From contig JAKVAX010000021.1 in the NCBI GenBank assembly GCA_022447625.1, positions 1-57,458 of the forward strand: a DNA stretch of 57,458 bases. The letters run 5' to 3'. The notes beneath the pieces were generated by a model. That model had not been told where the DNA came from. It did not search any database and saw nothing but the letters and a program-made list of their open reading frames with translations. This document shows, piece by piece, positions 3,118 through 53,027 of the stretch. Source of the stretch: Flavobacteriales bacterium. GTDB taxonomy: Bacteria > Bacteroidota > Bacteroidia > Flavobacteriales_D > Sanyastnellaceae. How positions within the stretch are numbered: position 1 is the first letter of the stretch; every line of letters starts with the position of its first letter. The position numbers and the translations under genes were made by a program.

Positions 3118-3145
3118 AAGCCCCGCATTTGCGGGGCTTTTTTTT
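3118..3145 (+). terminator. Rho-independent terminator
   Basis: Ten-base arms AAAGCCCCGC and GCGGGGCTTT around an ATTT loop, continued by a T-run; ends the T9SS cargo pair. Confidence 0.92.
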
Positions 3146-3150
3146 AGGCA

Positions 3151-3192
3151 GTAAGCGGTAAGCAGTATGCCGCATACTGCTTACCGCTTACG
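3151..3192. repeat. Heptamer array H12, a 20-bp perfect inverted repeat
   Basis: Six 7-bp words (GTAAGCG, GTAAGCA, then their inverse). Arms at 3151-3170 and 3172-3191 are exact reverse complements separated by one base. The right arm contains the stop and last codons of the minus-strand gene that ends at 3181. Confidence 0.9.
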
Positions 3193-4140: not shown

Positions 4141-4223
4141 AGGCAGACAGTGAACAACGAGACAAAAATGCTCGTGCTATCTGCTGTACACTTGAAGGGG
4201 GGAATGGTTCAGGGGGGCAAAGA

Positions 4224-4300
4224 ATCGATAAACGATAATCAAGAATCGATCACCAATTACTAAGAACTAAAAACCAATTACCGCAATCCGCGTTCCACGC
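4224..4300. repeat. Heptamer array H2
   Basis: Eleven 7-bp words in unbroken phase. The first eight are AT-rich (ATCGATA, ACCAATT), the last three GC-rich (ACCGCAA, TCCGCGT). The vocabulary changes without a phase slip. It lies upstream of ettA; a TATATTCG element (4329-4336) lies between it and the start codon. Confidence 0.88.
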
Positions 4301-12100: not shown

Positions 12101-12259
12101 GACGGTGGACGGTGGAATGTGGAATGTGGAATGTGGAATGGATGAACCTAATCAACTAACCATGCTAACCGCCGAAGGCGGACTAATCATGCTATGCGCC
12201 TCAGGCGTACTATTCATACTCCCCAAGTCAACCGTCTACCGTCAACCAATAACCAACGA
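12101..12259. repeat. Heptamer array H3 with embedded hairpins
   Basis: A left run of six 7-bp words (GACGGTG then GAATGTG types, 12101-12142) and a right run (CCGTCTA, CCGTCAA and CCAATAA types, 12232-12259). The middle carries two hairpins, CCGCC-GAA-GGCGG and CGCC-TCA-GGCG, each preceded by a similar CTAAYCATGCTA-like word. The whole block sits between the PCD gene and the aminotransferase promoter. Confidence 0.83.
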
Positions 12260-19944: not shown

Positions 19945-20014
19945 TTTCCTTGATTTTTCTGTGATTGGTTTCAAGGGTATAATGCAGGAACTTGAAAAAG
20001 TAACGCGGGGGGAA

Positions 20015-20215
20015 ATCGATAAACGGATAATCTGTAACTGATAACTCATGCTGTTGCTATTCATTGCACCCTTTTCAGCTTTCGATTATCAGTTAAGGAT
20101 TATCGATTACTACAAACCAAGAACTAATAACCAAAGACCTAGCTCGTCTCAATCATTCGATATTGGTTATCGGTTCTTGGTTATAGATTATCGTTTATCG
20201 ATTTCGTCAAGCAAC
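20015..20215. repeat. Heptamer array H5, long inverted set
   Basis: About 200 bp of 7-bp words between the gldM start and the next gene. The left part has ATCGATA, AACGGAT and AACTGAT types; the middle has TCGATTA, CCAAGAA and CTAATAA types; the right part is the inverse (minus-strand words ATCGATA, AACGATA, ACCAAGA, ACCGATA). The ends can fold back on each other. No intact gene lies inside; in-frame readthrough only reflects the words. Confidence 0.85.
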
Positions 20216-20293
20216 CTTTTGGTGGTCGACCGCATCTTTAGTCTGTTGAACCTATTCGACCAATTCATTACTTTGCAGGAAATAATTTTCGCT

Positions 20294-22535: not shown

Positions 22536-22571
22536 CCGTCTACCGTCCACCATCTCCCATCAACCACCAAC
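22536..22571. repeat. Heptamer array H6
   Basis: Five 7-bp words (CCGTCTA, CCGTCCA, CCATCTC, CCATCAA, CCACCAA) plus a partial sixth. The stop codon of the upstream minus-strand MFS gene (22560) lies inside the array, which supplies its last few codons. Confidence 0.85.
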
Positions 22572-23780
22572 CTCTGCATCTTCCCTATCCTTCATGTTCT
22601 TTACAGCGAACAGGATAAGGCAGCAGATGAGTCCAAGGCCGGCCATGGCATATAGCATCATCTCGTAGCCTACCTTGTCAATGAGTTGCATACCTGCGTT
22701 GTGGGCGAAGATGTGTGAGATCGAGAACGCGATAGAATACATAGCCATGTACGCACCTGCCTTACCGCGCTTGGAACGCTCCATGGCGAAGGTATTCGAG
22801 AAAGGAAAGGCTACGATTTCTCCGATGGACATCAGGATCATACCTAACACCAGAATTCCCATCCAGCCGAACCAATTGAGCACGAGGTAAGAGAGTACCA
22901 GAAGTAATCCTCCGAAAAGCATGAGCAATAGTCGATCTGCCTTTTTTCTTTCCAACCAGTCTACCAGCGGCATTTCAATTAAGAAAACCAATAGACCGTT
23001 GAAAGCGAGAAGCAGACCAATATCAGGATCACTCAATCCTCTAACCTCAGCGTAGTAAAGTGGAACCGTTGAAAAGTACTGCATGAAGACAAAGCCAAAA
23101 AGCATCATGGCCAATGCGAACCACATGAACAATCCATCATGCTCAGGTAAGTCCTTTTTAGACTCGTCTAGCTCATCGACTACTTTAGCTCGTTTCGGCG
23201 ATAGCGAGAGCAAAATCACCACGGCGGCAATTATACATGTCACACCATCAATCCAGAATAATCCATTGTAGCTGATATTGGCGATTATCCACCCACCTAT
23301 GGCCGGACCTGCAGAGAAACCCAAGTTAATTGCAAGACGGATCAAGGAGATACTGCGTGCCTTGTTCTCAGGTTTACTATATAAGCCAACAGCCACGAAC
23401 ATGGCCGGGCGGAACATATCTGTAGCGAGCATGGTCATAAACACACCAACACAGATCCACTCAAACTCTCTGAAGAACTGAAGGCCGATGAAGAATAAAC
23501 CTGAGAAAACCAGGCTGATCACCATCACTTTGAAGTTACCGATGCGATCGGTGAGCTTACCTCCCAACCAAGAACCGGCAACAGAACCAATACCAAAAGC
23601 AGACATAATCCATCCAACTTGAGCATAGGTGAAACCAAGTCCTTCTGTCAAATACAACGAAAGAAACGGGATGACCATCGCCCCAGCGCGGTTAATCAAT
23701 GTCATTAGCGCGAGCCACCACACCTCAGTTGACAGTCCTCTAAACGTGTCAACGTAACTTTTGGCAAGTTTTGTTTTCAT
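22560..23780 (-). CDS. MFS transporter
   Basis: 406 residues with twelve predicted membrane helices in two six-helix halves joined by a charged loop (SPKRAKVVDELDESKKDLPEHD). The loop-2 motif GGKLTDRIGNFKV matches the MFS G-x-L-x-D-R-x-G-R pattern. Sugar, peptide or drug export is possible; substrate unknown. Cytoplasmic membrane. The C-terminal codons and stop run into heptamer array H6. Confidence 0.9.
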   Translation of the reverse strand: MKTKLAKSYVDTFRGLSTEVWWLALMTLINRAGAMVIPFLSLYLTEGLGFTYAQVGWIMSAFGIGSVAGSWLGGKLTDRIGNFKVMVISLVFSGLFFIGLQFFREFEWICVGVFMTMLATDMFRPAMFVAVGLYSKPENKARSISLIRLAINLGFSAGPAIGGWIIANISYNGLFWIDGVTCIIAAVVILLSLSPKRAKVVDELDESKKDLPEHDGLFMWFALAMMLFGFVFMQYFSTVPLYYAEVRGLSDPDIGLLLAFNGLLVFLIEMPLVDWLERKKADRLLLMLFGGLLLVLSYLVLNWFGWMGILVLGMILMSIGEIVAFPFSNTFAMERSKRGKAGAYMAMYSIAFSISHIFAHNAGMQLIDKVGYEMMLYAMAGLGLICCLILFAVKNMKDREDAEVGG

Positions 23781-23936
23781 GATTTTACGATCGAAAGGAG
23801 ACGTAAGACACGAGAAAGTTACTTAGGGTTGCCTTGTGATCGAAAATCTTCTGCTTATACCTGATTTTTTTGCATGTGGATCACTCAATAAAATTCGAAG
23901 AATTCCGTTGCTGAAATACCAAAACCTAATTGAATC

Positions 23937-28312: not shown

Positions 28313-28347
28313 ACTACGCACTACGAACTACGAACTACGCACCACAA
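28313..28347. repeat. Heptamer array H7
   Basis: Five words (ACTACGC, ACTACGA twice, ACTACGC, ACCACAA). The same vocabulary reappears at H9/H10 flanking the four-helix-bundle gene, so this is a solo copy without the gene. It abuts the Nudix promoter. Confidence 0.85.
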
Positions 28348-28993: not shown

Positions 28994-29095
28994 AACTATA
29001 AACCATAATCCATAATCGATAACCGTCTGATATTAACCACAGACATCCAGTGGTCTATTAGGTTATAGATTTTAGATTATAGTTTATCGACTGTC
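28994..29095. repeat. Heptamer array H8, inverted pair
   Basis: Left run AACTATA, AACCATA, ATCCATA, ATCGATA, ACCGTCT (28994-29028). About 30 bp later the inverse run follows, read on the minus strand as TCGATAA, ACTATAA, TCTATAA types (29060-29095). The two can pair into an imperfect hairpin between the Nudix and aat genes. Confidence 0.85.
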
Positions 29096-45294: not shown

Positions 45295-46326
45295 GTGAAG
45301 AGACTCTCTATCATACTCATGCTGGCCATGGCGCCAGTGGCATTGCTCGCTCAATTGGGCGGACAAAGCGTCTTCAATTCCCTTGATATTCCTGCTTCTG
45401 CTCGTGTAGCAGCCATGGGAGGTGCGCTTCCTGCGATCGCAGATGGAGACCTGAATCTTGCGTTGTACAATCCGTCATTGCTCGATTCAACAACACATCA
45501 ATCAACCTCATTGAGTTATGTAAACTACTTCAGCAACATCAACTTGGGATTCGCATCCTATGCTCACCATTTGGATAGCACTGATATCACACTCGCCGGT
45601 CATATCCAGTATGTAGACTACGGGAATTTCACCGCTCGCGATGCTAACGGACTTGACATCGGAAGCTTCCGAGCTGGAGATTACGCCTTGGTTTTAGGTG
45701 CGGCCAAGCCTATCGATTCGCTCTTCACCGCAGGGGTTAACCTGAAGTTCATATATAGCAATTTAGAAAGCTATGATGCCTGGGGCCTTGCTTTAGATGG
45801 AGGCGTTACCTACATCAATCCAAAACGCAACTTGACCGCTTCATTGGTAGTGCGCAACCTCGGGCTTCAACTTGACGGATATAGAGATGGAGTACGTGAC
45901 ACGCTGCCTGTGAACTTCCAGATCGGAATTAGCAAACGCTTGAAGCACGCGCCATTCCGATTCTCGGTAGTATTCGACCAACTCCAGCGCTGGGACTTGA
46001 CTACTCCAGAAGACAACGTAGTGGTAGTAGACCCGATCACAGGCGAGGTTATCGAAGACAACAATTTCGAATTTGGCGACAAATTGATGCGTCACGTGAT
46101 CTTTGGAACTGAGTTCCTCTTAGGGGACAACTTCAAAATCAATTTCGGATATAATTATCGACGAAGGCAAGAACTCAAACTTGAAGACCGACCGGGAACG
46201 GCTGGTCTTTCATGGGGACTTGGATTCAGAATTAAGAAGTTCTCTCTGAGCTACGGACGAGCGATCTATCACTTCGCCGGTCCTTCAAATCATTTCACAA
46301 TCACCACTAGCCTTTCAGACTGGTAA
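45295..46326 (+). CDS. porQ: Type IX secretion system protein PorQ
   Basis: 343 residues with a GTG start. Signal peptide (LLAQ), then the OmpP1/FadL-like barrel with the PorQ signature near the N-terminus: LGGQSVFNSLDIPASARVAAMGGALPAI-D-D-NLALYNPSLL, and a C-terminal barrel strand. PorQ is an outer-membrane component that anchors the PorZ/PorU attachment complex for T9SS cargo. The next gene is cmk, a pairing common in Bacteroidota. Confidence 0.92.
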   Translation: MKRLSIILMLAMAPVALLAQLGGQSVFNSLDIPASARVAAMGGALPAIADGDLNLALYNPSLLDSTTHQSTSLSYVNYFSNINLGFASYAHHLDSTDITLAGHIQYVDYGNFTARDANGLDIGSFRAGDYALVLGAAKPIDSLFTAGVNLKFIYSNLESYDAWGLALDGGVTYINPKRNLTASLVVRNLGLQLDGYRDGVRDTLPVNFQIGISKRLKHAPFRFSVVFDQLQRWDLTTPEDNVVVVDPITGEVIEDNNFEFGDKLMRHVIFGTEFLLGDNFKINFGYNYRRRQELKLEDRPGTAGLSWGLGFRIKKFSLSYGRAIYHFAGPSNHFTITTSLSDW

Positions 46327-46382
46327 GGCGAAGGCTTCCAAGGCTGACCTGAATCCGTTATATTCGCGTCAAAGACTGACCA

Positions 46383-47081
46383 GTGAGAAAGAAGATTAAC
46401 ATCGCTATTGATGGTTATTCATCATGTGGTAAAAGCACCTTAGCCAAGTCCATCGCAAAGGAACTCAACTATATCTACATAGATACGGGTGCCATGTATC
46501 GTGCGATGACACTCTTCGCACTGAAAAGTCATCTCATTCGCAACGATGAACTCAATGTCGACAAGCTAAAAGCGATGATCGACAGCGCGTACATCACTTT
46601 CAAGTACAATACCGACACCAAGCGATCAGAAACTTATCTCAACGGCAAGAACGTCGAGAAGGAGATCAGATCTATGCAGGTTTCGAAATTCGTTAGTCCG
46701 GTCGCTGCCATTCCTGAAGTACGTGTGAAGCTTGTAAAACTTCAACAGCGCATGGCAGAAGTACGCGGTATAGTGATGGATGGCCGAGATATCGGAACCG
46801 TGGTACTCCCTGACGCAGAGGTGAAGTTCTTCATGACTGCTGACCCTGATGTTCGCGCTCAACGCCGTTTCAACGAACTCAAAAACAACGGACTCGAAGT
46901 CACATACGAAGAAGTCCTAGAGAACGTCGAGCAACGCGATCAAATTGACTCAACACGCGCAACTGACCCTCTCCGCCAAGCCGAAGATGCCGTGGTAGTC
47001 GACAACTCGAATCTTACCATGGATGAGCAGTTTGTGTTTGCGATGAATCATGTGAATAAGGTACTGGCTGTTCCGTCTTGA
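46383..47081 (+). CDS. cmk: Cytidylate kinase
   Basis: 232 residues, GTG start. P-loop GYSSCGKST near residues 11-19, IDTGAMYRAMT for CMP binding, GRDIGTVV-PDAEVKFFMTADP and the lid region R-AQRRFNEL. Phosphorylates CMP and dCMP with ATP. Preceded by a TATATTCG box. GTG is the only start ahead of the P-loop. Confidence 0.94.
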   Translation: MRKKINIAIDGYSSCGKSTLAKSIAKELNYIYIDTGAMYRAMTLFALKSHLIRNDELNVDKLKAMIDSAYITFKYNTDTKRSETYLNGKNVEKEIRSMQVSKFVSPVAAIPEVRVKLVKLQQRMAEVRGIVMDGRDIGTVVLPDAEVKFFMTADPDVRAQRRFNELKNNGLEVTYEEVLENVEQRDQIDSTRATDPLRQAEDAVVVDNSNLTMDEQFVFAMNHVNKVLAVPS

Positions 47082-47082
47082 G

Positions 47083-47117
47083 GTACGTAGTTCGTAGTTC
47101 GTGGTTCGTGGTTCGTG
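47083..47117. repeat. Heptamer array H9, left arm of the four-helix-bundle element
   Basis: Five words GTACGTA, GTTCGTA, GTTCGTG (three times). Read on the minus strand they are CACGAAC and TACGAAC words, the same as right arm H10, so the pair is inverted around the four-helix-bundle gene. Confidence 0.88.
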
Positions 47118-47125
47118 GGGCTCGT

Positions 47126-47539
47126 TTACCACTTTTGATTTAGGTTGTGGCGTCTTCTGAGGCTGGCTTTTAGAGCATTCAACTGCTTGATAAGCACTTT
47201 GATTTCTTCCTTCACGCCTTCTACCTTTTCTGCTGAAGTATATCCAAAATGAACTGTCAGATCGAGTTGGGTTGATAATTCTGCAGCTGACCCCGTTGCA
47301 TGGTTCAGATGTTTATGAAATCCAGCAGGACTGCCACTTGCCGCTCCTTCTACGATATTCGAACTCACCGAAACCATGGTTTTAATAAGGTGTTGGTGAA
47401 AACCAAAGTCCTTAGCCTCCTTGATTGGCATTATGATCTGATAGCAGTCTTTAGCTATCATCATTGACTTCTGCCACACCAACAAACGCTCCCAGTTACT
47501 TTCATTCATGCCCCGAATATATCCGAAGACTGATTCCAT
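47126..47539 (-). CDS. Four-helix-bundle protein (S23/IVS, Avd-like family)
   Basis: 137 residues (127 if started at ATG 47509). Motifs of the family: W-LLVWQKSM-IAKDCY, the central IVEGAASGSPAGFHKHLNHATGSAAELSTQLDL, and the helix-4 region YTSAEKVEGVKEEIKVLIKQL with basic end RRRHNLN. Relatives are the proteins encoded in intervening sequences of 23S rRNA genes and the accessory Avd proteins of diversity-generating retroelements, which bind nucleic acids. No reverse transcriptase gene is present here. It is bracketed by inverted arrays H9 and H10, which implies a compact mobile or repeat-associated unit. Confidence 0.88.
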   Translation of the reverse strand: MESVFGYIRGMNESNWERLLVWQKSMMIAKDCYQIIMPIKEAKDFGFHQHLIKTMVSVSSNIVEGAASGSPAGFHKHLNHATGSAAELSTQLDLTVHFGYTSAEKVEGVKEEIKVLIKQLNALKASLRRRHNLNQKW

Positions 47540-47647
47540 TCAGAAATGACTTTACTTCCGACGCACAAAGTTTCATCAACGTAGTACAAATGCCTCCGAA
47601 AGAATTGCCCAAGGAGCAATCCCTACAACACGTTTATGTATAAAAGG

Positions 47648-47730
47648 CACTGCGCAAAGCGCAGTGAATAATATTTCTACGAACCACGAACCACGAACCA
47701 CGTTCAACAAGAATCCGCCAGCGGATTCTT
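47648..47730. repeat. Heptamer array H10 with two flanking hairpins
   Basis: Words TACGAAC, CACGAAC (twice), CACGTTC at 47678-47705, the right arm of the element. Perfect hairpins lie on both sides: CACTGCGC-AAA-GCGCAGTG (47648-47666) and AAGAATCCGC-CA-GCGGATTCTT (47709-47730). Confidence 0.88.
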
Positions 47731-47817
47731 GGAACGCTTGTTGTTCTTAGCTAAGTGTTGATAATTGCAAAACGCATGCGCTCGCGAGGCCCCTGCACGT
47801 TGTAATTTCGAGAGATT

Positions 47818-50808
47818 ATGTTGAAGCGGCTCCTATCTATCATATCATTCCTTGTTCTTTTTGCGCCTTTCGGCGGAACGCTGCATGCGCAGCTGCAGGA
47901 TAGACGTATGCCTCCGGTGTTTTTGCAATCAGAGACGCCTTGGGCTGACTCGTTGATTCAAACGATGGATTTGAAGGCGAAGATTGGACAGCTTTTCATG
48001 GTGGCCGCCTACTCGAACCGAGATGCGAAGCATGTCAAGGAGATTGAGACCTTGATTTCCGAATATCAAGTAGGTGGGTTGATCTTCATGCAAGGAGGGC
48101 CACAGCGCCAAGCCATTCTCAACAACAAGTATCAAGAGATGAGTGAGATTCCGTTGCTGATCTCGATGGATGCTGAATGGGGATTGGGAATGCGTCTAGA
48201 TAGTGTGCTCTACTACCCACGTCAAATGACACTGGGCGCAACCAATGATGACAATTTGATTTATGATTTCGGACTAGAACAGTCACGTCAGTTGAACCGC
48301 ATGGGAGTGCATGTGAGCTTCTCTCCAGTGGTAGATGTGAATTCAAATCCGGATAACCCCGTGATTGGGAACCGAGCTTTTGGCGAAGATCGAATGCTGG
48401 TTTCACGGTTGGGTGAAGCCTATATGCGCGGACTTCAAGACGGTGGCGTCTTGGCCAACGTCAAACACTTCCCAGGTCACGGAGATACTGATACTGACTC
48501 TCACAAAACGCTGCCATCTATCCTTCACTCAAGAGAGCGACTGGATAGCATGGAGCTCTACCCTTTCCGCACGCTCTTTAACAAAGGAGCCGGAAGTGTC
48601 ATGATCGCGCATTTGAATATTCCTGCGCTTGATTCTAGTGGCCTACCGTCTACCCTTTCTCGCAAGATCACCCATGATCTGTTACGTGAAGAGCTCGGCT
48701 TTCAAGGGCTTGTTTTCACAGACGCGTTGAACATGCGCGGTATCGCTGATATCGCAGGACCAGGAGACGCTGAGTTCAAAGCGCTGCTTGCCGGGAATGA
48801 CATTCTACTTTTCGCTGGAGATGTCCCTACGGCTGCAAAGCGTATTCAGCAAGCCATTGAAACAGGTGAATTCACCGAAGAAGCCTTAGATGAACATGTA
48901 TTGAGAATTCTTCGCGCAAAGGAATGGTGTCAGGTTGCCGAAAACGATAGTGTTCGTCATGAAGGACTCTACGCTGATCTCCTCGCCCCTTCCGGACAAG
49001 CAATTCAGCGGAGAGTTATCGAAGGGTCGCTCACTGTGCTGAAAAATGAAAAGAAATTGCTGCCACTTCGTGGGTATGAAGGAAAGAAAGTGGCGATCCT
49101 CGATTTAGGAGTGAAGAAAGCTTCCGCGTTCAGCGAACAGTTCCAGCAATACATGGACGCAGATGTCTTTGTCTACCCAAAGCCGCCAGACTTTTCTGCC
49201 TCTCAGAAGATTGAATCAGAATTGAGTCAATACGATCTTGTAATTGTCAATCTTCTCGATGCGAGCAATCGTCCTTCCAAAAACTGGGGAGTGACAAACC
49301 AGAGCATGCGTATCATCTCAGCCTTGAATTCGAAGACGACGGTGGCTGTGAATCTCTTCACTAACCCGTACGCTCTTCGCAACATGCGCGGAATAGAACG
49401 CGTGAATGGACTGATGGTCGCATATCAAGACGATCCACTGACACAACAGATTTGTGCTGAAGCTATGGTTGGTGGTGCCTTTGCGAAAGGAACACTGCCT
49501 GTGAATTGTGGATTGGTATTCCCGGCAGGTTCAGGAGATCAACTTGACCAGCTATTGAGATTACGACATGCCATGCCCGAGTTTGAAGGACTGAATTCTG
49601 ATGATCTTCTTCGCATTGACAGCATTGCCCTTGAAGGCATCAAAGAACAGGCTTACCCGGGCTGTCGTGTGCTCGTGATTAAGAATGGGAGCGTCGTTGT
49701 TGACCGCAGCTACGGCTACCAAACCTACGAGAACAAGATTCCTGTTGACGGCTCAACGATTTATGATTTGGCGAGTATTACAAAGATTGTCGCTTCGACT
49801 GCTTCGCTGATGCGTCTCCAAGACGAAGGGAAACTCGATCTTGACCACAACTTGTGCGATTACATTACGGTGCCTGACACCTCGTCTTGCTACAACATGA
49901 ACTTGCGTGAGATGCTCAGCCATTACGCCCAGCTGCCCGCTTGGATTCCTTTTTACATGAACACGATTGACAAGGGAGAACTTCGCCCGGAACTTTACCG
50001 CAAGCAAGCTACACGTGGTTTCACGACGGAGGTCGCAGAGAATCTATTCATTCGTGACAGCTATGCTGATTCGATCTATCAAGAGCTCAATATGGTTGCG
50101 CTTCGTCCGGAAAAGGAATACAAGTACAGTGATCTGGGCTACTACTTCCTGCAAAAGGTGATTGAAAAGACGAGTGGTACAACCCTTGAGCACTTTGTAG
50201 ACTCTGTATTCTACCAACCAATGGGTCTTTCAAGCATGGGTTATCTACCACTTGAGCGCCAAGACATTAAGGAAATCGCACCAACGGAATACGACATGTT
50301 ATTCCGTAAGCAATTGGTTCACGGGCATGTACATGACCCAGGTGCTGCAATGCTTGGTGGTGTTGGTGGGCATGCGGGTGTTTTCGCTAACGCGGAAGAT
50401 CTGGCGATCATGATGCAGATGTTCATAAACGACGGCGAATACGGGGGCGTTCAATACATTCAACCGAGCACCCTTCAGGAATATACGACCTGCCACTACT
50501 GTTACGATGACAACAGACGTGGTGTAGGCTTCGACAAACCCGCGCTAGAACCGGATTCTGGTCCAACTTGCAATGATGCATCCAGCGCTAGTTTCGGTCA
50601 TTCAGGATTCACAGGAACTTTGGCATGGGCTGACCCAGAAGAAGATCTTGTTTATGTATTTTTGTCGAACCGGGTTTATCCAAATGCAGACAATAGAAAA
50701 CTATTGAAGATGGATATCCGCACAAACATTCAGCAGGTCATCTATGATGCGATTAGAGCGCAAAAGCAGCGCGAGAATCAAGACCTGCTGGGTGAATTGG
50801 CTGAATAG
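47818..50808 (+). CDS. Glycoside hydrolase 3 / serine hydrolase fusion
   Basis: 996 residues. Signal peptide (TLHAQ), GH3 N-terminal domain (IGQLFMVAAYSN, KH216-217 in NVKHFPGHGDTD, nucleophile D302 in VFTDALNMRG), GH3 C-terminal domain, and from about residue 605 a class C beta-lactamase-type domain with S653-I-T-K656, Y-S-D-x-G-Y and GHSGFTGT. GH3 part resembles NagZ-type N-acetylhexosaminidases; the second domain resembles esterases/peptidases acting on cell wall. A known Bacteroidota architecture, likely for peptidoglycan turnover in the periplasm. bshA follows 18 nt downstream. A -7-like TAATTTCG lies upstream. Confidence 0.93.
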   Translation: MLKRLLSIISFLVLFAPFGGTLHAQLQDRRMPPVFLQSETPWADSLIQTMDLKAKIGQLFMVAAYSNRDAKHVKEIETLISEYQVGGLIFMQGGPQRQAILNNKYQEMSEIPLLISMDAEWGLGMRLDSVLYYPRQMTLGATNDDNLIYDFGLEQSRQLNRMGVHVSFSPVVDVNSNPDNPVIGNRAFGEDRMLVSRLGEAYMRGLQDGGVLANVKHFPGHGDTDTDSHKTLPSILHSRERLDSMELYPFRTLFNKGAGSVMIAHLNIPALDSSGLPSTLSRKITHDLLREELGFQGLVFTDALNMRGIADIAGPGDAEFKALLAGNDILLFAGDVPTAAKRIQQAIETGEFTEEALDEHVLRILRAKEWCQVAENDSVRHEGLYADLLAPSGQAIQRRVIEGSLTVLKNEKKLLPLRGYEGKKVAILDLGVKKASAFSEQFQQYMDADVFVYPKPPDFSASQKIESELSQYDLVIVNLLDASNRPSKNWGVTNQSMRIISALNSKTTVAVNLFTNPYALRNMRGIERVNGLMVAYQDDPLTQQICAEAMVGGAFAKGTLPVNCGLVFPAGSGDQLDQLLRLRHAMPEFEGLNSDDLLRIDSIALEGIKEQAYPGCRVLVIKNGSVVVDRSYGYQTYENKIPVDGSTIYDLASITKIVASTASLMRLQDEGKLDLDHNLCDYITVPDTSSCYNMNLREMLSHYAQLPAWIPFYMNTIDKGELRPELYRKQATRGFTTEVAENLFIRDSYADSIYQELNMVALRPEKEYKYSDLGYYFLQKVIEKTSGTTLEHFVDSVFYQPMGLSSMGYLPLERQDIKEIAPTEYDMLFRKQLVHGHVHDPGAAMLGGVGGHAGVFANAEDLAIMMQMFINDGEYGGVQYIQPSTLQEYTTCHYCYDDNRRGVGFDKPALEPDSGPTCNDASSASFGHSGFTGTLAWADPEEDLVYVFLSNRVYPNADNRKLLKMDIRTNIQQVIYDAIRAQKQRENQDLLGELAE

Positions 50809-52593: not shown

Positions 52594-53027
52594 GGACGGA
52601 TTTCATCCGTCCCTACCATGGCATTTTCTAGGGAAAGAGGAGGCGCCTAACGGTGCCACAAGCCTAACCCCGCATCACCTAGACAGAACCCTCCATATCC
52701 CGTAGGGATTCTACTTTGTTGCCGAAAGATCTAAGAGAAAACCCAGTACCCCAGAGGGGTTCAACAAATCCGGACGGATGTTATCCGTCCCTACCACAGC
52801 ATTTCTAGGGAAAAAGAGACGCCTAACGGCGCCACGAACCCAACCTCGCCTCACCTAGACAGAACCTATCATATCCCGCAGGAATTCTACCTTGTTGCTT
52901 GAAGATCTAGGAGAAAGCCCAGTACCCCAGAGGGGTTCAACAAATCCGGACGGATGTTATCCGTCTCTACCACAGCATTTCTAGGGAAAAAGAGACGCCT
53001 AACGGCGCCACGAACCCAACCTCGCAC
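52594..53027. repeat. Tandem repeat of about 177 bp, hairpin-rich
   Basis: Two full copies (52594-52771 and 52772-52947) and a third partial (from 52948). Each contains, in order, GGACGGAT-n3-ATCCGTCC, a G(A/G)CGCC-TAAC-GG(C/T)GCC hairpin, ATCCC-GTA-GGGAT (mutated in copy 2) and ACCCC-AGA-GGGGT. No spacer diversity, so not CRISPR. The third copy runs into block B of the RHS unit; another copy occurs at 55062 and the start of one at 57448. Confidence 0.88.

Follow-up and report, generated by a model that had tools for sequence, protein, structure and literature searches.

The known element closest in build to the one reported here is the intervening sequence of Coxiella ribosomal RNA (rRNA). 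According to the accessible part of its description (PMC4990558), this is a 428-nt unit in which the open reading frame (ORF) of an S23 protein lies within the loop of a 28-bp end stem, tandem heptamers (GACAGAT) that vary in number among strains precede the ORF, and the 28-bp terminal stem is cleaved by RNase III at its first repeat; the same part recounts that mobility of rRNA intervening sequences had been proposed earlier. Heptanucleotide repeats were further reported from cyanobacteria and Xanthomonas (Rehm 2015, PMC4692102; MacGregor 2015, PMC4679880), with 70 inverted GGGAATC pairs in Xanthomonas campestris (PMC4692102) and copy numbers that shift by 7 nt (PMC4679880); the terms S23 or helix bundle occur in neither main text. 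The window, i.e., the whole stretch of 57,458 nucleotides that was analysed (contig JAKVAX010000021.1 of the Flavobacteriales bacterium assembly GCA_022447625.1, genome G000), harbours a unit of 620 bp in which an S23 gene is bracketed by two heptamer arrays of opposite orientation. Like the Coxiella intervening sequence, as far as the latter is described in the accessible text (PMC4990558), this unit combines a member of the S23 family, complementary ends around the gene and heptamers, but it resides in a spacer between protein genes whereas the former resides in rRNA. A stem formed by the ends on either side of the ORF is a mark of rRNA intervening sequences and is predicted for the window unit as well; this build is not wholly new, since the rRNA intervening sequence already shows it. 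With the repeats of cyanobacteria and Xanthomonas, as documented in the accessible parts of PMC4692102 and PMC4679880, the window arrays share their intergenic location, the heptameric period, copy numbers that differ in steps of 7 nt and the frequent occurrence as inverted pairs. Within the accessible open-access literature the S23 protein, rRNA intervening sequences and heptamer repeats are known separately, and a general mobile element uniting them was not found there; no general link between S23 genes and heptamer arrays was found, the Coxiella rRNA element being the one case in which the two are connected, nor was any extension of the intervening-sequence build to non-rRNA loci or lone arrays found, and the word heptamer is absent from two papers naming four helix bundle proteins. 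That an S23 gene and its arrays constitute a mobile unit is considered here to be highly probable, and with good confidence the window unit is assigned to a class of very small, widespread mobile elements which encode S23 only.

The evidence for mobility comes from sites that occur both with and without the unit. On plasmids, 16 S23 loci, chosen from among 39 records with S23, were examined (15 cyanobacterial, one from Riemerella), all 16 of which possess at least one array within 500 bp, with arrays detected on both sides in 12. A megablast search with the Trichormus plasmid locus L281 found three records that contain the complete locus (two from Trichormus, one from Scytonema) and six in which it is split into two pieces, with 84% coverage and 97.3-97.7% identity. 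Alignment of two of these six revealed an array-free empty spacer of 13 bp, as compared to which L281 carries a 423-bp insertion that consists of both arms and the gene and is flanked by a 5-bp duplication (GTAAT). A further relative, L288, retains an arm and the gene start only. Plasmid 2 of Aulosira carries, in unrelated surroundings, an element that is related to that of L281 with 82.8-84.1% identity, the homology spanning from array to array. For L277, comparison with the empty site L291 showed that 3 bp overlap at a TAATG stop/start junction; the more diverged empty sites L292 and L294 contain other sequence, of 7 and 13 bp. The gene-less L315, a relative of L276, retains the outer pieces of both arms, as expected from an internal deletion across GCCT; the units of L270, L274 and L280 are replaced by 42, 11 and 16 bp of other sequence, respectively, and at the L270 site L290 possesses an array, to which inspection by eye adds a weaker second arm, and S23 is not annotated there. 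A 6-bp duplication considered for L284 as compared to L293 was ambiguous and was not counted. The elements delimited span 423 to 620 bp, their ends being inverted arrays of 7-bp, sometimes 8-bp, repeats, and some S23 elements are located inside cas or conjugation gene clusters. L273, L278 and L279 were observed within CRISPR-Cas clusters of cyanobacterial plasmids; such insertions lie between cas6 and cas4 and between cas10 and a cmr3-type gene.

The association of S23 genes and arrays is not restricted to plasmids. In the main survey, 159 loci were considered (167 collected, of which 8 from sister genomes or near-duplicates were dropped, with near-identical orthologues in other genera remaining), an array being defined as a 7- or 8-bp repeat found by the detector within 400 bp of the S23 locus. 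Arrays were identified near 104 of the 159 loci and flank 47 of them on both sides. Among 80 named loci, period 7 occurs in 46, period 8 in 14, period 14 in 38 and period 15 in 8, periods 4-6 and 9-13 each in at most 2; distal windows of the same loci yielded period 7 in 15 of 421. When spacers only were considered (simple ORF caller, all 167 loci), arrays were found in 96 of 164 S23 gaps versus 11 of 221 control intergenic gaps, and outside Bacteroidota, as judged from record titles, 17 of 19 named loci have arrays. For the window's own genome, 8 of the 9 fetched S23 homologues (the tenth family member not included) possess 7- or 8-bp arrays within 400 bp, five of them on both sides. An initial annotation of the window had suggested that the S23 protein helps to make or move heptamer arrays, an idea that a lack of enrichment around S23 genes or an abundance of arrays in genomes without S23 would have spoken against; neither was found in these samples. 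The two arms of a locus belong together: at the 47 two-sided loci, compared over 500-bp flanks with 20000 permuted pairings, the inverted alignment score of a locus's own arms averages 20.7 versus 5.3 when permuted (maximum 10.1 in 20000), and the true partner arm ranks first at 31 of the 47.

The features of the window unit and its surroundings are as follows.
47083 to 47702, minus strand: the entire unit of 620 bp, in which the S23 gene lies between the two arrays; not in the 18 other family spacers read.
47126 to 47539, minus strand: S23 / 23S_rRNA_IVP four-helix-bundle gene, 137 amino acids (PF05635 2.2e-23, TIGR02436 1.9e-23).
47083 to 47118, plus strand: downstream arm in the sense of the gene, heptamer array GGTTCGT, beginning 1 base past the stop codon of the neighbouring gene.
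47679 to 47702, plus strand: upstream arm in the sense of the gene, heptamer array ACGAACC, inverted relative to the downstream arm.
47604 to 47620, no strand: small internal hairpin ATTGC...GCAAT, with better pairing in the sister copy by eye.
47648 to 47666, no strand: internal hairpin CACTGCGC AAA GCGCAGTG.
47709 to 47730, no strand: hairpin immediately to the right of the unit, also present in the sister genome.
46383 to 47081, plus strand: left neighbour gene, presumably a cytidylate kinase, present in all 21 genomes of the genus and family that were searched.
47818 to 50808, plus strand: right neighbour gene, which we take to be a glycosidase/beta-lactamase-type fusion, next to the left neighbour in 20 of 21 loci.
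28313 to 28345, plus strand: lone heptamer array of the same vocabulary, no inverted partner seen.

The S23 gene called by the initial annotation at 47126-47539 was confirmed, as both family models match above their curated cut-offs (PF05635 with 82.9 bits versus 33.8, TIGR02436 with 82.8 versus 24), and so were its brackets of same-word arrays in opposite orientation: Tandem Repeats Finder reports 5.3 copies of GGTTCGT at 47082-47118 and 3.4 copies of ACGAACC at 47679-47702, and the longest exact inverted match of the arms is a perfect one of 20 bp (47097-47116 with 47679-47698). The unit itself stood, its length being 620 bp and not the 623 bp given before, and of the hairpins placed outside the right end one does lie there (47709-47730), the two others being internal. 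Two thousand dinucleotide shuffles of 46901-47900 yielded at least one array in 2 cases and two arrays in none, and the whole window possesses 12 arrays versus a mean of 0.175 in 40 shuffles. S23 is the only ORF of at least 60 amino acids inside 47083-47702, a 60-residue antisense ORF overlapping the left edge, and no transposase gene was found among the ORFs of that size; Rfam gave 0 matches in 46300-48300, and the unit is placed between two protein-coding ORFs and not inside an rRNA gene. The left neighbour was sought in 21 of 24 genus and family genomes, and both neighbours are adjacent in 20 of the 21 loci, the remaining one being cut by a contig end. With L095 left out, the spacer was read at 19 of these 20, whereby the element was found in the sister genome G002 alone; the other 18 spacers are without a detected array, 15 of them measuring 76-352 bp between aligned protein ends and three of 925-992 bp appearing by eye to be coding. 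Eighteen family genomes lack the element between the same two genes, and the notion of a discrete insertion with inverted ends was supported by the family spacers together with the plasmid comparisons. The flanks of G002 are 94-96% identical to those of the window, and its upstream arm is longer by 84 bp, i.e., 12 units of 7. A target duplication at the window's own site is not readable, the relatives being too diverged; at the L004 site, the flanks lie about 19.5 kb apart in the sister, with other DNA in between and no clean empty site.

A number of observations weigh against the mobile-unit reading. No array was detected at 55 of the 159 S23 loci, the loci are not phylogenetically independent, and clean duplications (of 5 and 3 bp) were seen at 2 of 7 plasmid loci only, where precise deletion between short repeats could also mimic an empty site. 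The direct arm score is raised as well (6.4 versus a permuted mean of 4.2, above all 20000), a mean that is carried by the direct-looking loci: six of the 47 score higher direct than inverted, strongly so L025, L039, L108, L113 and L122, weakly L141. Among two-sided plasmid loci the inverted score exceeds the direct one in 10 of 12, with L273 and L275 reversed. S23 genes are sense to both neighbours at 110 of 167 loci (18 antisense to both, 39 mixed or unknown), but that of the window is antisense to both. The remaining S23 copies of the window's genome are only 25-36% identical to the window's own, so that no recent burst is seen, and we know of no catalytic activity of S23 proteins. In the random stretches compared below, many of the period-7 arrays are close to the score threshold, periods 5 (7 versus 1), 11 (4 versus 1) and 13 (6 versus 2) are also higher in S23-rich genomes than in the 360-kb S23-less set, and the arrays are unevenly distributed, 12 of 14 in the first control set being located in the window itself and 2 in the stretches of ten S23-bearing relatives.

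Arrays without a gene likely derive from elements of this kind. The window and a 72-kb sister region contain 33 arrays outside the S23 locus, which match S23 arms of the same genus with a mean of 0.74, as compared to a mean of 0.39 and a maximum of 0.557 for 2000 equal-sized arm sets from other genomes (none of the 2000 as high), a difference to which base composition may contribute; 21 of the 33 score better in this way than with the best of all 92 other arms. The array at 28313-28345 had been proposed to be a solo derivative, of which the array and the shared vocabulary were found but an inverted partner beside it was not seen; its best same-genus S23 arm belongs to L064, the sister copy of the window element, and the sister genome has an array at this place, too. 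In a Pseudoxanthomonas genome with three S23 genes, GGGACCG arms were detected at one S23 locus and none at two, and the GGGACCG pattern accounts for 93 plus 53 overlapping sites (146) versus 3 for the reversed control. Several of these sites are plus/minus pairs about 60-115 bp apart, which resemble the inverted GGGAATC pairs of Xanthomonas campestris as given in the accessible text (PMC4692102). The stretches drawn at random, none of which contains an S23 gene, yielded 14 period-7 arrays in 400 kb of ten S23-rich genomes, as compared to 1 in a 360-kb set and 0 in a 196-kb set from 17 S23-less genomes; periods 6, 9 and 12 are alike in both sets. Genomes without S23, named earlier as a check on the idea, hence proved almost free of period-7 arrays in the stretches sampled.

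Further gene-less arrays and hairpins were observed in the window. At 20000-20220, the window possesses a nested hairpin of heptamer arms, the inner part of which matches G002 as reverse complement (local score 44.0 reversed, 8.5 direct), so that the loop seems inverted between the species. At 12101-12256, heptamer arrays surround a repeated CTAACCGCCGAAGGCGGA hairpin, and by eye G002 has four arrays at this place with CTAACCGCCGAAGGCGGA hairpin copies in between. Arrays without S23 are further located at 80-164, 3145-3191, 4223-4277, 22536-22572 and 28994-29087, the corresponding G002 spacers having arrays too, and some of them form hairpins.

Such arrays bear on the best-surviving alternative, which is nevertheless deemed unlikely: arrays may come first, generated by host slippage and quasi-palindrome copying, with S23 as a passenger that homes into them or is trapped between them. 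This would agree with the S23-free arrays near the window outnumbering its single S23 gene, with the L009 site, where the sister genome lacks S23 and has arrays of other words, and with arrays varying by whole units. It is at odds with the near absence of period-7 arrays from the sampled S23-less genomes, with the array-free 13-bp spacer of the empty plasmid site (one case) and with the inclusion of the arms in the homology between two copies of one element.

Words and strands of the arms have been considered with respect to a second alternative. In the sense of the gene, G outnumbers C in 69 of 85 upstream arrays, and C outnumbers G in 69 of 83 downstream arrays. Each S23 locus has its own word, with almost no word similarity where the proteins are less than 60% identical and similar words in 13 of 14 pairs above 80%. 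Above 65% identity the word follows the protein strongly, but most such pairs have common flanking genes; among pairs with different flanks, 38% of 13 are similar in word at 65-75% identity and the sole pair above 75% is not, so that a coupling of protein and word independent of the locus is no more than suggestive. At L157, one arm was observed to be of period 7 (AATCGTG) and the other of period 8 (TTCACGAC), with nearly the same word. Predicted RNA folding places the arms in a terminal stem (z -7.7, -3.0 and -7.3), the first value being that of the window element with 20 shuffles. As judged from codon comparison, the S23 genes of the sister pair look to be under purifying selection, the ratio of nonsynonymous to synonymous substitution rates being 0.13 for the window gene and its sister copy and 0 to 0.35 across seven S23 sister pairs. 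An RNA-binding S23 that controls its own and other genes via heptamer stems, with no mobility involved, would fit such stable predicted stems, the strand-asymmetric arms at mostly co-directional genes and the purifying selection. This reading is regarded as improbable, given that the same site is occupied or empty among relatives, words are unrelated where proteins are less than 60% identical, S23 genes with stop codons occur (two copies in G000) and insertions are found in unrelated operons, e.g., among cas genes.

The S23 protein itself gives rise to a third alternative. Its AlphaFold model (mean predicted local distance difference test score 90) was compared with solved structures by Foldseek, the best match being 2gsc (2gsc_B, target template modelling (TM) score 0.92), besides 2rld; in the test against solved four-helix-bundle members, phmmer gave 1.1e-15. 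Avd (4dwl, target TM 0.88) and the particle 8ub7 of a diversity-generating retroelement (DGR) were also matched, both with E 0.03 or weaker, and at the sequence level the Avd model is matched weakly (E 0.05). The likeness to Avd to which the initial annotation had pointed is thus upheld for the predicted fold, the four-helix bundle being what S23 and the Avd of DGRs (4dwl, 8ub7) would have in common. The window's genome possesses 9 S23 homologues by protein search and 10 by family. At L307 (G235:C30:33516-33824), the S23 domain was observed in a 511-residue open frame, possibly a fusion, and L024, L025, L028, L030, L035, L073 and L074 form a divergent subfamily with, by eye, a motif around GTAIGALIREA. 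A DGR-type retroelement, in which S23 would take the part of Avd and assist a reverse transcriptase that works on element RNA, would be in line with the fold matches (4dwl, 8ub7) and with the excised RNA described for the rRNA intervening sequence in the accessible part of PMC4990558, and is as improbable as the regulatory reading. DGRs have a reverse transcriptase, but a search with PF00078 detected none in 16 of 32 S23-bearing genomes, among them the window's own (G000), by which a reverse-transcriptase partner is disfavoured. The Y1 transposase (PF01797) was matched in 30 of the 32, the one match of G000 being located on another contig; as it has no match in the other two it is not required, and as a partner it was rejected. 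These two, G031 and G068, are without matches to PF00078 as well. An artefact of chance or base composition is considered practically negligible. It could draw on the short two-copy repeats that bacterial spacers commonly contain and on some period-7 arrays of AT-rich genomes being close to threshold, but the shuffles, the periods near S23 genes, the permuted pairing and the control gaps contradict it.

For the mobile S23 element, the lack of PF00078 in G000 and of both families in two S23 genomes points to movement that would probably depend on S23 and core host enzymes at the DNA level, while the DNA-level route as such is put forward tentatively, with slightly less than even confidence; phages gave 0 matches with one S23 query. 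The suggested mechanism assumes that in the transcript the two arms would pair into a long stem, the loop of which holds the gene, whereupon a ring of S23 (a pentamer in the solved relative) may recognise the paired arms of its own word, either as RNA or as extruded DNA. A direct action of S23 on the arms is modestly favoured. The element would then be copied or moved by core host enzymes, its arms may lengthen or shorten by whole units via slippage, and internal deletion or non-autonomous derivatives might account for lone arrays and gene-less hairpins. The S23 intervening sequences of 23S rRNA genes could be the same element landed in rRNA. REP/RAYT (repetitive extragenic palindromes and their transposases) and MITE-type elements (miniature inverted-repeat transposable elements) are likewise small inverted-repeat units distributed across spacers in gene-bearing and gene-less forms; unlike these, the window unit is without a transposase-like gene and its ends are arrays whose word varies from copy to copy. 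A far-reaching version, in which S23 proteins are the sole engine of an unrecognised transposable class with self-templating heptamer-array ends, each lineage recognising its own word, and in which this class has left its traces in rRNA intervening sequences as well as in cyanobacterial repeats, the Xanthomonas GGGAATC and trnL intron repeats, is speculative and rather doubtful. Elsewhere in the window, a 176-bp unit in 2.4 head-to-tail copies was observed at 52594-53026, and at 23835-23900 G002 is longer by about 650 bp with, by eye, an apparent small gene.

The finding would unite heptamer repeats, which have no known origin, S23, which has no known function, and rRNA intervening sequences, the origin of which is unclear, in one mobile element. 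If true, this element would be among the smallest autonomous ones, moving without a recognised transposase, with gene-less relatives seeded through spacers and operons being entered, CRISPR-Cas among them. Relatives occur in many bacterial phyla and may explain the scatter of seven-letter repeats in their genomes, and the function of S23 becomes a question open to direct tests.
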